A DNA stretch of 64,000 bases from Blastobasis lacticolella. Its lineage: Eukaryota; Arthropoda; Insecta; Lepidoptera; Blastobasidae. Made by a program: the position numbers and the translations under genes. The DNA is taken from NCBI GenBank assembly GCA_905147135.1, contig LR990061.1:3076026-3140025 (forward strand). The letters run 5' to 3'. This document shows, in pieces, positions 20,274 to 56,300 of this stretch (position 1 is its first letter; each line of letters begins with the position of its first letter). The notes under the pieces were generated by a model. The model worked only from the letters and a program-made list of their open reading frames with translations. It did no database searches and was not told where the DNA came from.

Positions 20274-20364
20274 GTTAGTTTTTTATTATTATTTAAATGA
20301 AATTTTTAACAGTCCATTTTGTGTAGTGTTAGTAAAATTACTTATAACTCGTGTTTTGTTACAG

Positions 20365-20460
20365 GTGTGTCTACATTGGACGTGGATGCGCCCACGTTCG
20401 TGCCGCGGTGGCTGCCGGACAGCGGGCGAGGGTCGTTGGAATCGCTGAATGAAGATGCAT
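20365..20460 (+). CDS. Second exon-like segment with PAM2-like motif
   Basis: It follows a good acceptor (CGTGTTTTGTTACAG) 91 bases after the previous donor. It encodes VSTLDVDAPTFVPRWLPDSG and RGSLESLNE. A second LDVxAPxFVP in phase with the first supports real splicing ancestry. The reading frame does not stop here: it continues without a break into the retroelement RNase H at 20,613. The exact junction between host-like and LINE-like sequence cannot be fixed by eye and is put near 20,460. Confidence 0.45.
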
Positions 20461-21158
20461 GGCCTGACATTGACACTTGTCTTCTTTTTCAGGAAGCAAT
20501 ACAGAAGGAACCTATTCTAGTATCTATCAACGATGCTATTCCAATCCAAGTACCATCTCTAAAAAAATACAACATTCAACTGCAGAAGGAGCCGTCAAAG
20601 ACTCCTCCTGCAGGAGAAGTTAAGATTTTTACAGATGGATCTCGGACGCCATCAGGCAGTGGATGTGGAGTTTTCTCGAAGGATTTGGGCATAGAAATAA
20701 GCATCCCGCTTGGCGAGTACACCACGAGCTTCCAGGCTGAATGCATGGGAATTATTAAAGCCACTCACGTTATACTGGATGCCGAATCCAATTCAAAGCC
20801 AATTCGAATTTTGACAGATTGTCAAGCAGTCCTTAAGGCCCTTGACAAGCAGATAATTACCACGCGACTCATCCTCGAGTGTCACCAAAGCCTAAATGAG
20901 GTATGTAAAACCAATCCTGTAACGCTGCAGTGGATACGAGGACACAGCAGATCAAAGGGAAACAACGCAGCTGACGAGTTAGCCAAGCGAGGATCTAGTG
21001 CTAAACCTATTGGCCCGGAGCCAATTCTGCCCCTGCCCCTCTCATACGCCCGTCAACGCCTGAAAGGTAAAATCGATATAAATCATGATCTACTCCTGAC
21101 TTTACTCGACTACCATAAAAGTCAGGAAGGCTCTTCTGTCATCTTAGAGCCTATTTGA
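20460..21158 (+). CDS. Open RNase H domain of a non-LTR retrotransposon
   Basis: The frame, open from upstream of 20,365 to a TGA at 21,156, encodes a type I RNase H. The four acidic catalytic positions are all present: D in IFTDGS, E in FQAECMGI, D in ILTDCQAV and D in NNAADELA, with the GH preceding the last one. LINEs of the R1/I/Jockey range carry this domain at the C-terminus of the polymerase protein. The reverse transcriptase is absent here, and the end after GPEPILPLPL is short (about 50 residues). The preserved frame may reflect youth or use. It is fused in frame to the PAM2-like segment. Confidence 0.75.
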   Translation, partial: WPDIDTCLLFQEAIQKEPILVSINDAIPIQVPSLKKYNIQLQKEPSKTPPAGEVKIFTDGSRTPSGSGCGVFSKDLGIEISIPLGEYTTSFQAECMGIIKATHVILDAESNSKPIRILTDCQAVLKALDKQIITTRLILECHQSLNEVCKTNPVTLQWIRGHSRSKGNNAADELAKRGSSAKPIGPEPILPLPLSYARQRLKGKIDINHDLLLTLLDYHKSQEGSSVILEPI

Positions 21159-50900: not shown

Positions 50901-53900
50901 CAGGTTGCGACTGGCCACCGTTTATAAGGTGAGGCTTTTTATTATACTCGATTTTGTTTATTTATTCGTATGGCAAAAATACAATACATGAGAAACGTAT
51001 TTATTATAAGCTACAAATTTAAATCAAGCGAATTTTTTTTTTATTGCACATTTAATACACTTGGCGGACTTAAAGCCATTAAGGCTTTATCTTCCACCTA
51101 ACCAGTAGACCATGCAGGAAGAGAGGTAGGTGCTGAAAAGCGATGGTGCGTAATGCCCCACTGAGGTGGCAAAAAGCTTACGGCCCGCCTGATGGTAAAC
51201 AGTCACCGCAGCCTATGGACGTTTGCAATACCAGGGGCATTTCACCTAGAACTCCATGTTGAACCACCCACTTCAGGCTAAACCTCTCCAGGTAGTTCAT
51301 TCCACAACCTTAGTGTGGCGGTGTATGATAATGATGAAGTCTGTTTCATACCATCAGGTACATACTGTGGTAATTGAAACCCTGGCGAGGCAGAAAGATC
51401 GATCAGCTCTAACCAACTACAAAATGGCGCTGGACCCTCAATCGGAAGAGTACATCCTGGCTGAGAACACCTTGAGGGATCCGGTGAGTGAACACTTTAT
51501 CAGGCATTATATTAGGTCCTTACCTATGAAATTTGTGTTTTGGAAAATGACGGATAATTTTCATACAAGCAAATTTTACAATTTCTTTGAAATGGCAAAT
51601 CCGATTACAATGAAACTATATAGGTATAATCTGATAACATTAAGCTAATGATGTTTATCTATATATTGTGATAACTATTCTATTTACTTGGTTTTCTGGT
51701 TAAAGAGGCAAAACTGAAACAACTGAAAAGGGGTTAAAATAACCCTTATAAAACATATAAGATAACACTTTTTATTTAATTTTAGGGACTTATATATATA
51801 TGTCGGGGAAAGACTGGAGAAGACTCGCCCATGAGCGAGTAATGGCCATCAGAACGTATTTATCGGGATTTCGTAGCAATAAAGGGGTATCTATAGTGTT
51901 TTAAGAATGTATTGTCAAATTAAAGCCACATTTACGAGTATACAATTGTAGCCGAAACCCGCGGGTTATTTGCAAAACCCTCCGCCACCCATGGCCAATC
52001 TCATCAGGCCGATCCGCGGGAGATGCGCCGGGGCTCTTACTAGTTGCCTCATACGCACAGCTTGACTCCCTACACATTGTTAACAGTACATCCTGCACTC
52101 ACGTTTCTATTTTCTGGAGCTTTCACGCATCTCTTTAACGCATCAGGATTTACGCTTCTTCGCTCTTGAATGGTTTCTAGTCCGTTTTCTCAATATCCTT
52201 GCGGCTGCCGTCGCCGCCATGCTGCTTGTGACGTTGTCATAATAGTTGCAAGCCACCCGTCAGGTGGCGCACCAATCGACATCCAGGCCAAAGAGATGGA
52301 CTAAGAGACTCATGATCATCTCCGACACGGCTATCCTGCTATACACACGTCCTCGTGTGTTATCTGTAACACGAAAACAACACAGCACAATACCATATTC
52401 GCTCGGTCACTCCTGACCCCACGGTGATCAGACACCCAAAACTACTACTCACTCAAACAAAACTCAAAACCACCTTTCATCATTACTCGTCTTACTTTTG
52501 TAACCGGTAGGTGCTCTACACTCTAACGTTTCAATACGAAACTGCCAAGGTCGTAATAGTAACAACACTTTACTAAATATCTGTCAGCTCGTAGTCTATT
52601 CTTCGACCAAATCCCAGTTGCATAAAATCAGAAGTAACACGGTATATCGGGTCTCTACATGTGAGAACACAGTCCGTCGGCTGTATGTAACTTTGCACTA
52701 TCTGACATTTGACTAACTGTTTGGTAATACAACTATATTTGTAATAATTTGTGAGGAAACAACGTAAATTCACCTACCCTTTTCACTATGCAAAAACGTC
52801 TGATTAGAATTATAGCCAATATTTAAACTACTGACAGCTGTAAATCTTATTTTATACACACAAAATCTTCAGTTTACCCTGTATTTACATATTGGAAGCT
52901 CGTAAATTTGTATGAAAATATCTCAAATTTGTTTTCTCTACCATTGCACCATCTCCACTAATGTGTTATTACACTACCTTTTGAATTCATGTCAATAATC
53001 AGCCCTGTAATTATCCACCACTCATCCCTGCGACTATATTGACCATCCTTGCTGATCATCTCTGTGATTATCCAACAATCATCCCCGCGACTACATGTTA
53101 GTCAACCATATGGCTTCCTATCGAATTTGCATGACTATATAATAGATAAGTTAATTCTAGCATCCTCTAACAAAACAATTCAACTGTCTGCATAATTTCA
53201 GTATCAAATCATTGCATATCATATGGGAACCTTCTGCATTATTACACAAATAATTTCCTCTACTACCCAATACTAAAACATGTAAGTCATCATTTTAATA
53301 CTAAAGACTCCAGAACATCAGACACAAAAAGGTATTGTTTTCTGTTTTATTTTCGATCCCCCACAGAATAATCCACCCAGACTAGCAGACGCCACACAGG
53401 CCAGTAGACGCCACACAGGCCAGTAGATGCCACACAGGCCAGTAGATGCCACACAGGCTAGTAGATGCCACACAGGCCAGCAGATGCCACTCAGGCTGAA
53501 ACAACCTACTTTATTACTCACTAAGTACGAACTGAATACCTAATAAGTTACAACGGTCTGACCCTAGATCCTTTTTTTTACTGCTTATCGTACGTTTAGA
53601 ATTCGATAGAAGGTAGCCAGCAGGTAGTAGCATGCAGGCGCTACGTATTTGACGCAGTTACTTCACATCGTACGTGTAGTATTATACATTGGCTGTACCT
53701 ACCACCCATTATTTATATTACCCATACATTTTATTTAAATAACAATATTATCATGGTACCCCACGACTTCAGGTTACTTTAACAGATTGCGGAAAAATGA
53801 GCTTAATAATTTATTTACTATACAGAGGAAGAAGAACTATGTAGAGGAAATATAACTCGACGCTATCGAGTAGTCTATAACTTTAATAAGCCGCCTTCGT

Positions 53901-56300
53901 TATTGTACATCATTTACAATTAGTCGGTTTACACCGTCTATGTTTGGTGTCACATTTGAAAAGAATCATAATCCCTGAAGGAGGGCGCTAGGTCTTTCTC
54001 CGAAACGTCATTATTTTCATTGTACAACCGAGACATGTTAGTTTATTTTTCCGTCACGTTCCTTCTTATCCATGTTCCAGTGTTGGCGACATTCCATTTC
54101 TGTCACAGAATACTACATCCTTACGGTATTGCTGCATAAAACGCAGAACTAGCGCCACAATAAAATTGACAGGTCACCTCTGTTGCGGTCAAGCTATATA
54201 AAATTACACAACTGAATACAATTTGCAATTATCGTTAAACAGTTACTTTTTTTCACTAACGTAATATTCAATAACTTTCAACAAAACCCAAATAATAACT
54301 TGTTATCGGTAATCAAAATATTATCTCTTAGAAATTGTATGAAAAGCTACACCTATCGCACACCCCATAATTAAACGCACGCCACTCAAAGACAGAAGAA
54401 ATACCAGATATACACCTACGCCTACGAATGGGGTCATACAAGACTGTATGCTCTGTTCGATTCGACACGAATATAAGTGAAGGAGTATCATAGTTTGCTA
54501 TCTATTTCATTTTAGTAACTGCAGTAAGCTGATAGTATTTATGATAAGTCTGAATTGGAACCTCACGGTAGGTACTCAGGTACTCAAAGTTTTACATTAT
54601 AAATAAAAACAAAAACATGTCCTATATGTAGTACCACGAGACACGTATTCCAAAGGAAACAACAATAGTACCAACCATCGAGCAATCACAAAATAACCAG
54701 ATCATCATTAGGTACTTATCTTTTATTACATACAACGCTTTTGTACATAGCTTGAAACAGTCACCATCTGGTGGTTCCGCGCCTATAGCATTCACCAGCA
54801 CGGTTAGCCAAAGTACTTAACCCCAAGGGGTAGATAAAATAACTATTAATTTCTGCGCCTAATAACAATTAATCACCATGAAACAAGCTTTAAGAAAATA
54901 AAATTATCACATAACTAAAGTGAAGCTTTGCCCATAAAATAAGATACCAATCTCTTTTGCTTTTGCCTATACTTTTCATAAAAGTCAAGAATGGGGTGTC
55001 ATCAGCTGTTCGTACGAAATCGGCCATTTTTGTTTGTAACAATTATTGATTTTTTAGGTTTGTCGTAGAAGCCGCCATTTAACCTTTTTTTTTACCACAC
55101 CGCATTTGTGAATAATGTTTATCAAAAAACCATATTTCGGTGTACCCTGGCATAAGCCGGGCCTGATCTCTATAATGATGTTGATTATTTTACCACACAT
55201 AACCCTTCTAAAACCCTTCGTAATCCTTAACCGTAGAACTATTGTTCAATTATTTTTTGAGATTGCAAGACTCCGTCACCAAGTTGGTGCATGGAAACTC
55301 AGTACTTAGTAACTTTCCATCTTAGTTCGTTACACATTATTTGTAAAAACAAATTGAATTTACCTACATCGATTCTCTCACAAGTAAACACGGTTCGACT
55401 CACCGAATGGAAAGTTTCAGCGTGTATGCTTTATAGGTTGTAAGTTGTACGTAATTATGGACCAACCACGAACCAGCACTCTTTCTTGTGTTTGCACTAG
55501 ACTTTTGCCATTTCGTCGTATCTTCCGCCGCTCAGCATTTCGTACACGCAGTTTATTTGGCATGAAAAAAATAAGATCGAGCATTAACATTGTGGACGTG
55601 AAGATCTCTATCCCACTTCTGATGTCGGGGAAAGACTGGAGAAGACTCGCCCATGAGCGAGTAATGGCCATCAGAACGTATTTATCGGGATTTCGTAGCA
55701 ATAAAGGGGTATCTATAGTGTTTTAAGAATGTATTGTCAAATTAAAGCCACATTTACGAGTATACAATTGTAGCCGAAACCCGCGGGTTATTTGCAAAAC
55801 CCTCCGCCACCCATGGCCAATCTCATCAGGCCGATCCGCGGGAGATGCGCCGGGGCTCTTACTAGTTGCCTCATACGCACAGCTTGACTCCCTACACATT
55901 GTTAACAGTACATCCTGCACTCACGTTTCTATTTTCTGGAGCTTTCACGCATCTCTTTAACGCATCAGGATTTACGCTTCTTCGCTCTTGAATGGTTTCT
56001 AGTCCGTTTTCTCAATATCCTTGCGGCTGCCGTCGCCGCCATGCTGCTTGTGACGTTGTCATAATAGTTGCAAGCCACCCGTCAGGTGGCGCACCAATCG
56101 ACATCCAGGCCAAAGAGATGGACTAAGAGACTCATGATCATCTCCGACATATATATACTCTTTTTTCGAAATTAATTGTAATAAAAATTAATTTCATAAT
56201 TTGAAACCCTGTATGACACCTAATCCACCGCCCTCTGTTTTTTTATGTGTACTACATGAATTTTATTTTTTATTTCCAGTCAATAAAATGGAAGAACTAA
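38857..56300 (+). CDS. VIPAS39: VIPAS39 / SPE-39 (Vps16B), 11 coding exons
   Basis: Coding exons: 38,857-38,925; 39,028-39,172; 39,498-39,688; 40,725-40,861; 43,688-43,715; 45,767-45,917; 48,863-48,999; 49,590-49,679; 50,773-50,928; 51,358-51,483; 56,280-56,300. They total 1,251 bases, giving 416 residues. All introns are GT-AG and all phases agree. Family hallmarks: an acidic N-terminus with DDDDYWN and DDD; a RCSLHCHRSL segment; DAILTVVLFLIQTLNRKSVY; a DWLGRTTL block; YKMALDPQSEEY; and the terminal SIKWKN. The family is known to bind the SM protein VPS33B and act in endosomal and phagosomal maturation towards lysosomes (in flies Vps16B, full of bacteria). The Vps16 C-terminal-type helical domain occupies about residues 130-410. 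The human protein is about 490 residues, so the N-terminal disordered part is shorter here. Introns are packed with mobile elements, but no coding exon is damaged. Confidence 0.93.
39028..39172 (+). CDS. VIPAS39: VIPAS39 exon 2 (residues 24-72)
   Basis: Acceptor GTTTCAG, donor GTAAGT, ends in phase 1. Ser/Pro-rich linker (LSPQEILAIGQ ... LVSPKVLDL), low in conserved positions. The preceding intron is only 102 bases. Confidence 0.88.
39240..39420 (+). mobile_element. LINE end fragment in intron 2
   Basis: CACTTTCTATCAGGTGGTCTG near an A-rich end shares the terminal motif of 57,725 and 43,377. A small internal duplication surrounds ACACCAGTGATACCT/ CTCCTGGTGTTGC. Confidence 0.4.
39498..39688 (+). 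CDS. VIPAS39: VIPAS39 exon 3 (residues 72-135)
   Basis: Acceptor TTGTCTAG, donor GTAAGT, ends in phase 0. LTLGRRCSLHCHRSLRSKTE corresponds to the KGKVCSLERFRSLQDK region of the human protein and GDGDAILT to its HDGNVITA, the start of the helical C-terminal domain. Confidence 0.9.
39689..40724. other. Intron 3, no recognised element
   Basis: About 1 kb of AT-rich intron. Short frames on the minus strand have no recognisable domain. Confidence 0.5.
40725..40861 (+). CDS. VIPAS39: VIPAS39 exon 4 (residues 136-181)
   Basis: Acceptor CATCTTTTCAG, donor GTAAGT, ends in phase 2. Encodes VVLFLIQTLNRKSVYELLSS and LALAHYITFLQNEGK, the best-conserved helices of the family (compare VLIFLKRTLSKE). Confidence 0.92.
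41088..41440 (-). mobile_element. SINE family S2, full length, in intron 4
   Basis: Minus strand: head GAGCGTCGGTGGCCGAGCGG, B box GGTTCGAATCCCGCTCC, body with CACATTCAGGCGACTGGATG, tail GGACCCCGGGCCCTCGTGCG to AACCGGGACATTAACGCCAA. Head, body and tail are all well preserved. Confidence 0.85.
41775..41880 (-). mobile_element. LINE 3' end in intron 4
   Basis: Minus-strand CTTCAAGAAAGGGGTGAAAA, GGTCGGCAACGCGTGGGCCT and a GCCACCTTAGTGGTATATAA end with a poly(A) remnant. Same family as 27,415. Confidence 0.6.
42288..42336. repeat. Perfect 22-bp hairpin
   Basis: Left arm 42,288-42,309 (TTGTATTTACCTTGTTCTGT + AT) and right arm 42,315-42,336 are exact reverse complements with a 5-base AAGTA loop. 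It lies in intron 4 just after an A-rich LINE-like end (AAATAAATAAATAAAG). Confidence 0.85.
42459..42592 (+). mobile_element. SINE family S2, internally deleted, in intron 4
   Basis: The tRNA-like head (GTCGGTGGCCGGCGGATAGG, GGGTTCGAATCCCGCTGCGG) and CAATGACTCTTTCCTGAG join directly to the very end of the tail (CACAACCGGGACATTAATGC). About 220 bases of body are missing. Confidence 0.8.
43325..43610 (-). mobile_element. SINE family S1 with a nested LINE end
   Basis: The S1 unit (CACAGCGCCATCTAGCCCCA at its 3' side, TTCCCGGCCGAGC in its head) is interrupted at 43,372-43,445 by a short LINE end with a T8-9 run on the plus strand, that is, a minus-strand insertion with a poly(A) tail. About 17 bases of S1 are missing at the site. 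Confidence 0.7.
43688..43715 (+). CDS. VIPAS39: VIPAS39 exon 5, 28-base microexon
   Basis: Acceptor TTTATTTCAG, donor GTGAGT. It completes a split Thr codon and encodes MLGRSPEAA, returning to phase 0. It corresponds to the LDRTEE-type turn after the FRFL helix in the family. Skipping would shift the frame. Confidence 0.85.
43737..43820 (-). mobile_element. SINE S2 tail fragment in intron 5
   Basis: GAATCAATATCCCGGTTGTG, CTCTCGCGCACGAGAGCCCG, then TTAACCATGA: the outer 70 bases of the S2 tail in minus orientation. Confidence 0.6.
43991..44240 (-). mobile_element. Family Z element in intron 5
   Basis: Starts at GCATCACAGCCCATAACAGT and ends at CAGACACCACACGGCC. It has lost about 15 bases in the GGGCCTCTCCC region. 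Confidence 0.75.
44735..44790 (-). mobile_element. RTE-type LINE tail fragment in intron 5
   Basis: On the minus strand GGAAAGCGGACCCTGGCAGA, GGCCGGGATAAGCGCTAAGA and GATAATGAT. It matches the tails at 11,640-11,712 and 50,105-50,170. Confidence 0.65.
45295..45711. mobile_element. MITE-like element with 17-bp perfect terminal repeats
   Basis: AAGCGCGCTCCACATGT (45,295-45,311) is exactly inverted at 45,695-45,711. Inner sequences also pair loosely (GAGAATGTAGAGG occurs at 45,331 and again near 45,640). The length is 417 bp. A fragment of SINE S2 (45,482-45,570) lies inside. No transposase. Flanks differ (CATT / TATAG), so a target duplication is not obvious. Confidence 0.65.
45767..45917 (+). 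CDS. VIPAS39: VIPAS39 exon 6 (residues 191-241)
   Basis: Acceptor TTTCCAG, donor GTAAGT, ends in phase 1. Encodes MCQFQHVVRSHGND, LLRKVSNLEANHF and HAKMVADYVKLL, the middle of the helical domain. Confidence 0.9.
46213..46555 (+). repeat. Paralogous segment 1 in intron 6
   Basis: GGCAAGCGAAGATGGAGA, ACAGTTGATTGTCGGAAGTA, TCAGCGCCATCTATGTGCGG and GCGATAGATGTCGC recur in the same order at 48,446-48,700. This copy carries the fold-back element 46,255-46,381. Confidence 0.75.
46255..46381. mobile_element. Fold-back MITE, copy 1
   Basis: The left arm CCTGGGGCTTACCATGAACT... (42 bases) pairs with the right arm ending ...AGTTCATGGTAAGGCCCCAGG, both containing AGCAGGACCTAAAC or its complement. The inner arm block CGTTCTAAGCAGGGCAGTT is present on the right side only. 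Confidence 0.8.
46556..47336. other. Middle of intron 6, no recognised element
   Basis: AT-rich, with repeated small GCGCCATCTATTGATG / GCGCCATCTATGTGCG words. No frame with recognisable similarity. Confidence 0.4.
47337..47487. mobile_element. Fold-back MITE, copy 2 with complete arms
   Basis: Both arms carry the outer block (GGGCTTACCATGAGCTCTTA / TAAGAGTTCATGGTAAGCCC) and the inner block (AACTACCCTGCTTAGAACGA / TCGTTCTAAGCAGGGCAGTT), leaving a loop of about 30 bases. Same family as 46,255-46,381. Confidence 0.85.
47955..48180 (-). repeat. LINE 3'-tail-like repeat in intron 6
   Basis: Minus-strand copy of the family at 24,650: GCAAGCATTATTGCTTGGAG, GGCGGTGGTACTCACCCAGG and GACAGAGTTCTACCACCTGC. 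Confidence 0.6.
48205..48447 (-). mobile_element. SINE family S1 in intron 6
   Basis: Near full length: CACAGCGCCATCTAGCCCCA, body, GGCCGGGAATCGAACCCGGG. The head has lost about 15 bases between CCTCTTG and CATGTTGACC. It abuts paralogous segment 2. Confidence 0.8.
48446..48700 (+). repeat. Paralogous segment 2 in intron 6
   Basis: Same order of landmarks as 46,213-46,555 but without the fold-back MITE. At the corresponding place lies a short palindrome, CCTGGTCGGGTGTTGTGACC followed by AGG. Confidence 0.7.
48863..48999 (+). CDS. VIPAS39: VIPAS39 exon 7 (residues 241-286)
   Basis: Acceptor CCTCCCCAACAG; the upstream TTCTATAG would bring in an in-frame stop and is rejected. Encodes WQKLADRASLHNASALCCLA and HMMSPLTLCQRQQ. 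The donor is GTGCTG, weaker than the others, but it is the only position that joins exon 8 in frame. Confidence 0.85.
49149..49545 (+). mobile_element. SINE family S2 in intron 7
   Basis: Head GCGTCGGTGGCCTTGTGGTA, body with CTAACCGATGCT occurring twice around a 40-base insertion, then GCAGACCCCGGGCCCTCGCG and a GGACGCCAATATGATGAT tail. Confidence 0.8.
49590..49679 (+). CDS. VIPAS39: VIPAS39 exon 8 (residues 287-316)
   Basis: Acceptor TTTTTCAG, donor GTAAAT, phase 0 at both ends. Encodes IPPLQYDWVVLNVHAKANKW and DIVESLFTKK, matching KIPDKQYVL...ARAKLRAWNDVDALFTTK of the human protein. Confidence 0.9.
49737..50103 (+). repeat. 367-bp direct duplication, unit 1, in intron 8
   Basis: Repeated at 50,280-50,646 (offset 543) with only a few mismatches, for example GGGCGTGAG against GGGCCTCAG. 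The unit contains a family Z element (49,866-50,102). Confidence 0.9.
49866..50102 (-). mobile_element. Family Z element in intron 8, unit 1
   Basis: ATCATCATCATCACAGTCCA to GGTGCTATTCTATTCTG. It lacks the last CCGGACACCACACGG, which unit 2 keeps. Confidence 0.75.
50104..50279 (+). mobile_element. RTE-type LINE tail between the two units
   Basis: GAGTAGGAAAGCGGACCCTG, GATAAGCGCTAAGGTGATGA: another tail of the kind at 11,640. It is followed by unremarkable sequence to the start of unit 2. Confidence 0.6.
50280..50663 (+). repeat. 367-bp direct duplication, unit 2, with family Z
   Basis: Matches 49,737-50,103 to base 50,646, after which the Z element continues to its natural end (CCGGACACCACAAGG). 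Unit 2 is therefore the more complete copy. Confidence 0.88.
50773..50928 (+). CDS. VIPAS39: VIPAS39 exon 9 (residues 317-368)
   Basis: Acceptor CACTTTTGTCCAG. The upstream AAATACAG is out of phase with exon 8 and is rejected. Encodes DWLGRTTLSSHIPTETLLCR, LMGTCLTKLASTDDRLRLAT and VYK. Donor GTGAGG. Confidence 0.92.
51160..51325 (-). mobile_element. LINE 3' end next to exon 10
   Basis: On the minus strand, CTAAGGTTGTGGAATGAACT, ACCTGGAGAGGTTTAGCCTG and a TTGCCACCTCAGTGGGG end. Same family as 27,415. It stops about 30 bases before the exon 10 acceptor. Confidence 0.65.
51358..51483 (+). CDS. VIPAS39: VIPAS39 exon 10 (residues 369-410)
   Basis: Acceptor CATACCATCAG, donor GTGAGT, phase 0. Encodes VHTVVIETLARQKDRSALTN, YKMALDPQSEEYILAENTLR and DP, matching CHDVVIDTYRDLKDRQQL...YRSKV of the human protein. 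The usual Cys at the exon start is Val here. Confidence 0.92.
51510..51745 (+). mobile_element. Mariner-like repeat fragment in intron 10
   Basis: TTAGGTCCTTACCTATGAAA behind a TA, then ATTTTCATACAAGCAAATTT and AAAGAGGCAAAACTGAAACA. Same order as 22,835-23,065. No transposase frame. Confidence 0.45.
51801..52327. repeat. Left LTR
   Basis: 527 bases, TGTCGGGGAAAGACTGG at the left and GATCATCTCCGACA at the right. It contains an AATAAA on the plus strand near 51,880 and a GC-richer middle (CCGCGGGAGATGCGCCGGGG). Confidence 0.9.
53383..53505. repeat. 21-bp minisatellite inside the LTR element
   Basis: About six tandem units of a GCCAGTAGATGCCACACAG-type 21-mer, varying at a few positions (gacgcc/gatgcc). 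It is in the internal region of the LTR element. Confidence 0.85.
55623..56149. repeat. Right LTR
   Basis: Same 527-base sequence as the left LTR. No mismatch was found in the stretches compared. Confidence 0.9.
56280..56300 (+). CDS. VIPAS39: VIPAS39 exon 11 (terminal SIKWKN and stop)
   Basis: Acceptor TTTTTTATTTCCAG, then TCA ATA AAA TGG AAG AAC TAA. The family ends in (I/S)xWKN (human QIRWKN), which identifies this 21-base coding end despite a 4.8-kb intron before it. Confidence 0.9.
   Translation, partial: SIKWKN

Follow-up and report, generated by a model that had tools for sequence, protein, structure and literature searches.

What kind of element interrupts the last intron of this gene, in which direction is it read, and how could it move without proteins of its own? 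The window, by which we mean the whole 64,000-nucleotide stretch of the Blastobasis lacticolella genome that was analysed (C22:3076026-3140025), holds at positions 51801-56149 a 4349-bp unit with the outline of an LTR retrotransposon.

Element structure and host intron

The unit comprises two direct repeats of 527 bp each (51801-52327 and 55623-56149) around an interior of 3295 bp. The LTR termini are TGTCGG...CCGACA, i.e., the repeats have TG...CA ends, and sister copies are alike in this. An earlier note on this DNA had described LTRs of equal length, with these ends, that looked identical, and pairwise comparison bears this out base by base (527/527 identical, 0 mismatches). In the proposed sense orientation, which is the minus strand, the 5' LTR is 55623-56149 and the 3' LTR is 51801-52327. 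The annotation of the whole as a non-autonomous LTR retrotransposon on this strand draws on the identical LTRs and on a tRNA-Leu primer site found in the minus orientation only. Because a TA run (TATATATA) flanks the element on both sides, the length of the target site duplication of the window copy (4 bp, TATA, at 51797-51800 and 56150-56153) is told by analogy with other copies. Chance and an assembly join, the latter raised in the note, are ruled out because the LTR-interior-LTR unit recurs at other loci, each time between different flanking sequences and with a duplication of 4 bp; no sign of a join was seen.

The intron that contains the element spans 51484-56279 (4796 bp) and would measure 443 bp minus the element and one duplication. 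As modelled from the reading frame and splice sites, the penultimate coding exon (51358-51483, plus strand) ends in AENTLRDP and the last (56280-56300, plus strand) encodes SIKWKN and the stop codon; thus, in this model, the last six codons are cut off from the rest by 4.8 kb, as previously noted. The assignment of the host gene to VIPAS39 was not confirmed by Pfam, PDB or whole-genome Vps16_C searches. One upstream exon has a Vps16_C match below the curated cut-off (E 0.015), the joined exons have no Vps16_C match and no PDB match, and searching the whole genome for Vps16_C at E values up to 1 returned four places, all on a contig other than that of the host gene.

The interior lacks coding capacity

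The longest ATG frame measures 57-85 aa in all 27 interiors examined, that of the window included. Among 200 shuffles of the window copy's interior, the longest ATG frame averaged 72 aa and had its 95th percentile at 97 aa, so the observed frames lie within the range of shuffled sequence; the interiors hold no genes. In the window copy, neither of the two longest stop-to-stop frames has a retroelement domain in Pfam; one of them has a chance-level match to FMN_dh (E 0.21). Neither the window copy nor any sister copy among the 27 interiors has a gag or pol frame, in line with the note's description of the element. Four Rfam matches to the window element (up to E 5) all fall far below cut-off, and ARAGORN found no tRNA gene in the window or in 16 loci. 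A 19-bp minisatellite of 5.8 units was identified at 53387-53496 (minus strand; Tandem Repeats Finder).

Aligned in blocks of 150 columns, the 27 interiors show 94-98% identity in almost every block that contains letters, and indels are numerous. The most conserved interior stretch, at 99.5% identity over 59 alignment columns, is the end carrying the terminal module described below. A multicopy family with a long, conserved interior free of gag and pol in 27/27 copies agrees with the proposal that the element is LARD-like and non-autonomous.

A frame of 279 aa elsewhere in the window (20319-21158, plus strand) carries an RNase H domain (PF00075, E 2.2e-15) and is probably a retrotransposon remnant.

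A multicopy family inserted into TA runs

The genome searched comprises 577 Mb on 45 contigs. Searching it with the LTR gave 395 first-look candidates, and the best 40, which were scored, all span 527 bp at 97-100% identity; 22 of these form 11 pairs with start-to-start spacings of 3.8-4.2 kb. The interior gave 2124 candidates, of which 40 were scored. Our copy sample consists of 40 loci with LTR or interior matches plus the window, and represents the best-scoring copies, not a random draw.

Insertions could be scored for target sites where both outer ends are complete (35, with six excluded: L028, L034, L038, L043, L045 and L048). A matching 4-bp duplication occurs in 35/35, and it is TATA in 25. 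The length is exactly 4 bp in 16/35, and in the other 19/35 the TA run would permit 6 bp too. Solo LTRs flanked by a duplication account for eight of the 35. The empty target site is the palindrome ATA-TATA-TAT, and the motif that flanks the window element is present in 22/35 empty-site 20-mers vs 7/7386 20-mers sampled from the window. A 4-bp duplication in an AT-rich palindromic target is a feature of Gypsy (Ty3), mdg3-like elements.

Patterns for the two LTR/interior junctions (up to two mismatches) matched at 125 and 431 places (controls 2 and 0), with 100 listed for each. From 92 and 88 listed places we assembled 80 junction pairs, leaving 12 unpaired. By this measure the interior is 3.0-3.95 kb in 65/80 pairs, shorter in 4, and at least 5.1 kb in 11, where insertions may be nested or junctions wrongly paired; the 27 copies examined have interiors of 3.1-3.6 kb. 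At C6:10001250-10009226 and C26:971798-979559, two LTR/interior junctions lie 4.5 kb apart, and these are probable LTR-interior-LTR-interior-LTR copies of the same family.

Age and activity

That the insertion is recent, as the note supposed from the look of the LTRs, gains support from the absence of any mismatch in 527 positions and from the family as a whole, in which 18/28 LTR pairs are identical and 40 substitutions occur over 14,722 compared sites. Between copies, LTR divergence is 0.2-4.5% (median 2.7%). The window copy groups with L009, L010 and L011 in a clade of four (support 100/97, the bootstrap not having settled); identical LTR pairs occur in copies scattered across the family tree. 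If substitutions arise at 2.9e-9 per site and generation, an LTR pair without a single change over 527 bp has an age bound of about 0.98 million generations. The description of the window copy as "very young" is thus plausible, though the copy is not tightly dated.

Orientation and primer-binding site

A search with a tRNA-Leu pattern returned nine genomic places, seven of them exact, and ARAGORN identified two as tRNA-Leu(CAG) (L051) and tRNA-Leu(TAA) (L052). On the minus strand the interior opens with TCAGAAGTGGGAT (55610-55622), a 13-nt perfect complement of the genome's tRNA-Leu(CAG) at offset 0, which overturns the earlier statement that there is no clear primer-binding site. Otherwise the longest complement is 6 nt in the plus orientation against tRNA-Leu(CAG) and 5 nt with tRNA-Leu(TAA). 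The 13 letters are intact in 26/27 interiors; the 27th (L024) has the same letters with the boundary shifted by an 11-bp loss in the LTR. Because the site is present in the minus orientation only, the element most likely lies on the minus strand, as judged from sequence. A plus-strand primer-binding site was considered and rejected, since complementarity to tRNA-Leu(CAG) reaches at most 6 nt there (tRNA-Leu(CAG) and tRNA-Leu(TAA) tried).

The match begins 5 nt inside the 3' end of the mature tRNA and leaves the last 5 nt uncovered. The elements 412 and mdg1 use primer sites inside the tRNA 3' end. Our literature search yielded nothing usable on such sites, and the available parts of PMC6797199 and PMC5408687 hold no primer-binding-site information.

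Two features count against the minus orientation, again going by the letters. By inspection, no polypurine tract was seen in either orientation; its expected place directly before the 3' LTR (52328-52339, minus strand) is occupied in 27/27 interiors by GCAGGATAGCCG, which is not polypurine. In addition, the LTR has its poly(A)-type signals, AATAAA at 78 and ATTAAA at 119, on the plus strand, with none on the proposed sense strand. The part of the family C LTR that was seen (families B and C are introduced below) resembles the window LTR in this respect, and the family B LTR is the opposite for AATAAA. Animal Gypsy-type LTRs have a conserved AATAAA (PMC3601003, from the available part of the text).

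A terminal module shared with other LTR families

In the minus-strand reading, the end of the interior opposite the primer site has the order GGTCAGGAGTGACCGAGCGAA ... ACACACGAGGACGTGTGT ... GCAGGATAGCCG, then the LTR. It includes two hairpins, ACACACG-AGGA-CGTGTGT (52343-52360, minus strand), present in 27/27 interiors, and GGTCA-GGAG-TGACC followed by GAGCGAA (52405-52418, minus strand), exact in 25/27. Families B and C, two more LTR families that have this two-hairpin module in common with the window family (family A), show both hairpins too, the first being recognized there by eye. Variants of the terminal motif (GCAGGAYGGCCG) adjoin other LTRs. In a 140-bp stretch that crosses the LTR end, family C (seen in L049) is 80% identical; for family B (seen in L043 and L050) the figure is 85% over 79 bp. 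The GTGTGGC core of the family A minisatellite is repeated in family B's own minisatellite and occurs once in the family C stretch.

The commoner form of the module, GTGTGTNNNGCAGGAYGGCCGTG, which excludes the exact form of family A, has 614 exact matches in the genome (control 0). Ten primer junctions on C1-C4 (of 45 contigs) were paired with modules. The distance is about 4.4-4.5 kb for four assigned to family B and 3.3-3.7 kb for three assigned to family C, assignments that rest on spacer letters among the module sites listed; of the remaining junctions, one has a distance of 10.3 kb and two are partnerless. Family A has both interior ends in common with other LTR families. Viral contigs gave no match to the terminal module and none to the primer junction.

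Two observations on individual loci may be added. In L049 (C3:15321800-15325300), a family C locus, the 11 nt beside the LTR, CAGGATGGCCG, equal positions 3-13 of tRNA-Leu(CAG), and families A and B are each one position off; the 3' part of the same tRNA is complementary to the family A primer site at the opposite interior end. In L043 and L048 (C14:18.57 Mb and C23:0.60 Mb), the end of a family B element, a family B LTR, a short TA run and a family A LTR follow one another in identical order, at 98% identity over 630 bp, an arrangement that fits either a nested insertion that was then duplicated or a composite unit.

It is conceivable, though in our estimation improbable, that a protein-less LTR clade (at least families A, B and C, with several hundred modules) diversified non-autonomously, held together by the two-hairpin module and the tRNA-Leu primer site. 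The tRNA-Leu-like sequence at both interior ends, i.e., the complement of the 3' part at the primer site and the 11-nt 5' piece in family C, would then suggest that one tRNA, or fragments of it, helps to start both strands in place of a polypurine tract.

Search for an autonomous helper

The note had proposed looking in the genome for an autonomous partner with the same ends. None with the family A LTR or the module was found among the 150 integrase domains scored of 1372 candidates and the 100 module sites listed of 614. Lacking too is an autonomous long-interior copy of family A among the 11 junction pairs of at least 5.1 kb, none of which contains any of the 150 scored integrase matches. 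The scored integrases on C1-C4 number 29, and none is positioned just upstream of any module site among the 100 listed; two come within 10 kb of such a site, neither arranged as expected. Families B and C were rejected as helpers, as their longest stop-to-stop frames are 127 aa (last 2.6 kb of a family B copy) and 139 aa (3.0 kb of a family C copy).

Allowing at most one mismatch, we located the primer junction ACA|TCAGAAGTGGGATTCG 88 times (control 0); four of these are exact and twelve have AAA in place of ACA. For 3/88, one of the 150 scored integrase domains is no more than 9 kb away. In two of the three the junction and the integrase are on opposite strands. At the third, C15:829285, the integrase core domain (PF00665) is on the same strand, 4.98 kb downstream, where 0.06 such pairs would be expected by chance. 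In the 231 bases read there, a presumed LTR end, with AATAAA and the last letters ...GACA, precedes TCAGAAGTGGGATTCG; a leader comes next, and after it an ATG frame that stays open for 16 codons up to the end of the piece. We regard this place as a candidate coding element with the primer geometry and direction of the window family.

There are signs of other LTR elements elsewhere in the genome. At C5:20473880-20487583, four tRNA-Leu primer junctions on one strand are spaced by 4562, 4562 and 4560 bp and probably mark a different LTR element in tandem array. In the right flank of L039, past the family A copy, begins a frame that from its letters gives the impression of another LTR element's gag, and an integrase domain lies about 3 kb beyond it (C3:22913986).

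Comparison with known elements

LARDs, large retrotransposon derivatives described from plants, are long LTR elements with kilobases of conserved non-coding interior. The window family resembles them in its length and its kilobase-scale conserved interior without gag or pol. It differs in its LTRs, which at 527 bp are far shorter than those of the plant type, and in an interior that tolerates indels. For moths and butterflies, a literature search turned up no usable account of LARDs.

For the papers cited next, the comparison extends to the parts of each text that were available. In Culex quinquefasciatus, 38 code-less LTR families with internal tandem repeats and no known master copy have been listed (PMC3286476). 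Likenesses to the window family are similar LTRs, a primer-binding site, target site duplications, and the lack of coding capacity and of a known master copy together with internal tandem repeats. However, the duplications there are mostly 5 bp vs 4 in the window family, a polypurine tract is reported there and none was seen here, and the terminal module of the window family is common to several families (compared with PMC3286476). By analogy, the window family would join the non-autonomous LTR families already described without a known master copy.

Duplications of 4 bp and TATA/ATAT palindromes are also found in Gypsy families of Drosophila (PMC3276498), matching the window family. The mdg3 group is similar by description: Spoink has a 4-bp duplication and an ATAT-rich target (PMC10965091), and Culex cqgypsy_29 uses a tRNA-Leu primer and has 4-bp duplications (PMC3286476). 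However, Spoink encodes gag-pol (PMC10965091) and cqgypsy_29 has two ORFs (PMC3286476), unlike the non-coding window family. Among small non-autonomous LTR elements, animal Helenus has 4-bp duplications, and some TRIM, Helenus and Ajax elements use a tRNA-Leu primer (PMC10886601), as the window family appears to. TRIMs are shorter than 1 kb vs 4349 bp for the window element (PMC10886601). The tRNA-like LTR sequence that marks the TRIM/Helenus type was not found here (no tRNA by ARAGORN, no Rfam family above cut-off).

Proposed mechanism and alternatives

We consider it likely that the window element is a young copy of a non-autonomous, LARD-like LTR family, lies on the minus strand and was mobilised in trans by a Gypsy element that primes with tRNA-Leu. 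The element RNA would be transcribed from the LTR, packaged, and reverse transcribed from the tRNA-Leu primer by the proteins of a Gypsy (Ty3) helper with a primer site of the same kind. Insertion into TATA-rich runs would fall to the helper's integrase, and packaging, dimerisation or plus-strand priming are possible roles of the shared terminal hairpins. Besides the poly(A)-type signals and the missing polypurine tract, points against this reading are the lack of a helper with the same ends among the 150 integrase candidates scored, the uncovered last 5 nt of the mature tRNA, and the opposite strands in two of the three primer-integrase pairs.

The opposite orientation, with transcription on the plus strand, a tRNA-Leu match that is no primer-binding site, and priming by self-priming or by an internal tRNA fragment, is in our judgement unlikely. 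It would account for AATAAA and ATTAAA occurring in the LTR on the plus strand only, and the conserved AATAAA of animal Gypsy-type LTRs (PMC3601003, in part) speaks for this strand; it would also place the most conserved stretch, the 59 columns at the module end, at the beginning of the 5' leader. At this end, in family C, GCAGGATGGCCG offers 11 nt that by eye equal positions 3-13 of tRNA-Leu(CAG). Against this stand the 6 nt of plus-orientation complementarity to tRNA-Leu(CAG) vs 13 at offset 0 on the minus strand, and the candidate coding element at C15:829285, whose ATG frame and integrase behind the same junction run in the minus-equivalent direction.

The proposed trans-mobilised family also has to be weighed against decay, i.e., copies that are internally deleted or degraded derivatives of a recent autonomous element and form no stable non-autonomous family. 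The many interior indels of sister copies would fit this, as would the absence from the four closest copies of about 90 bp present in others. However, all 27 interiors are non-coding and mutually 94-98% identical in nearly all blocks holding letters, several subfamilies have been recently mobile, and the stretches of families B and C are likewise without long frames, so that we hold decay to be very unlikely. A further question bears on novelty only and is compatible with the non-autonomous family proposed here: the family may already be catalogued in Repbase or Dfam, a real possibility to which we give somewhat less than an even chance. Standard repeat finders easily catch multicopy LTR elements, and the 38 code-less families of Culex were listed in 2012 (PMC3286476, in part).

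Implications

The insertion lengthens the last intron of the host gene about eleven-fold (443 to 4796 bp) and leaves the modelled exons untouched. The strong preference for TA runs is a possible reason why such insertions end up in introns and spacers. The locus belongs to a recently active non-autonomous LTR family that stands beside relatives having only the ends in common. Comparing these ends across families indicates the parts that a helper may have to recognise (the primer site, the terminal hairpins and the LTR tips), and because the shared ends point to such parts, mobilisation in trans becomes testable.
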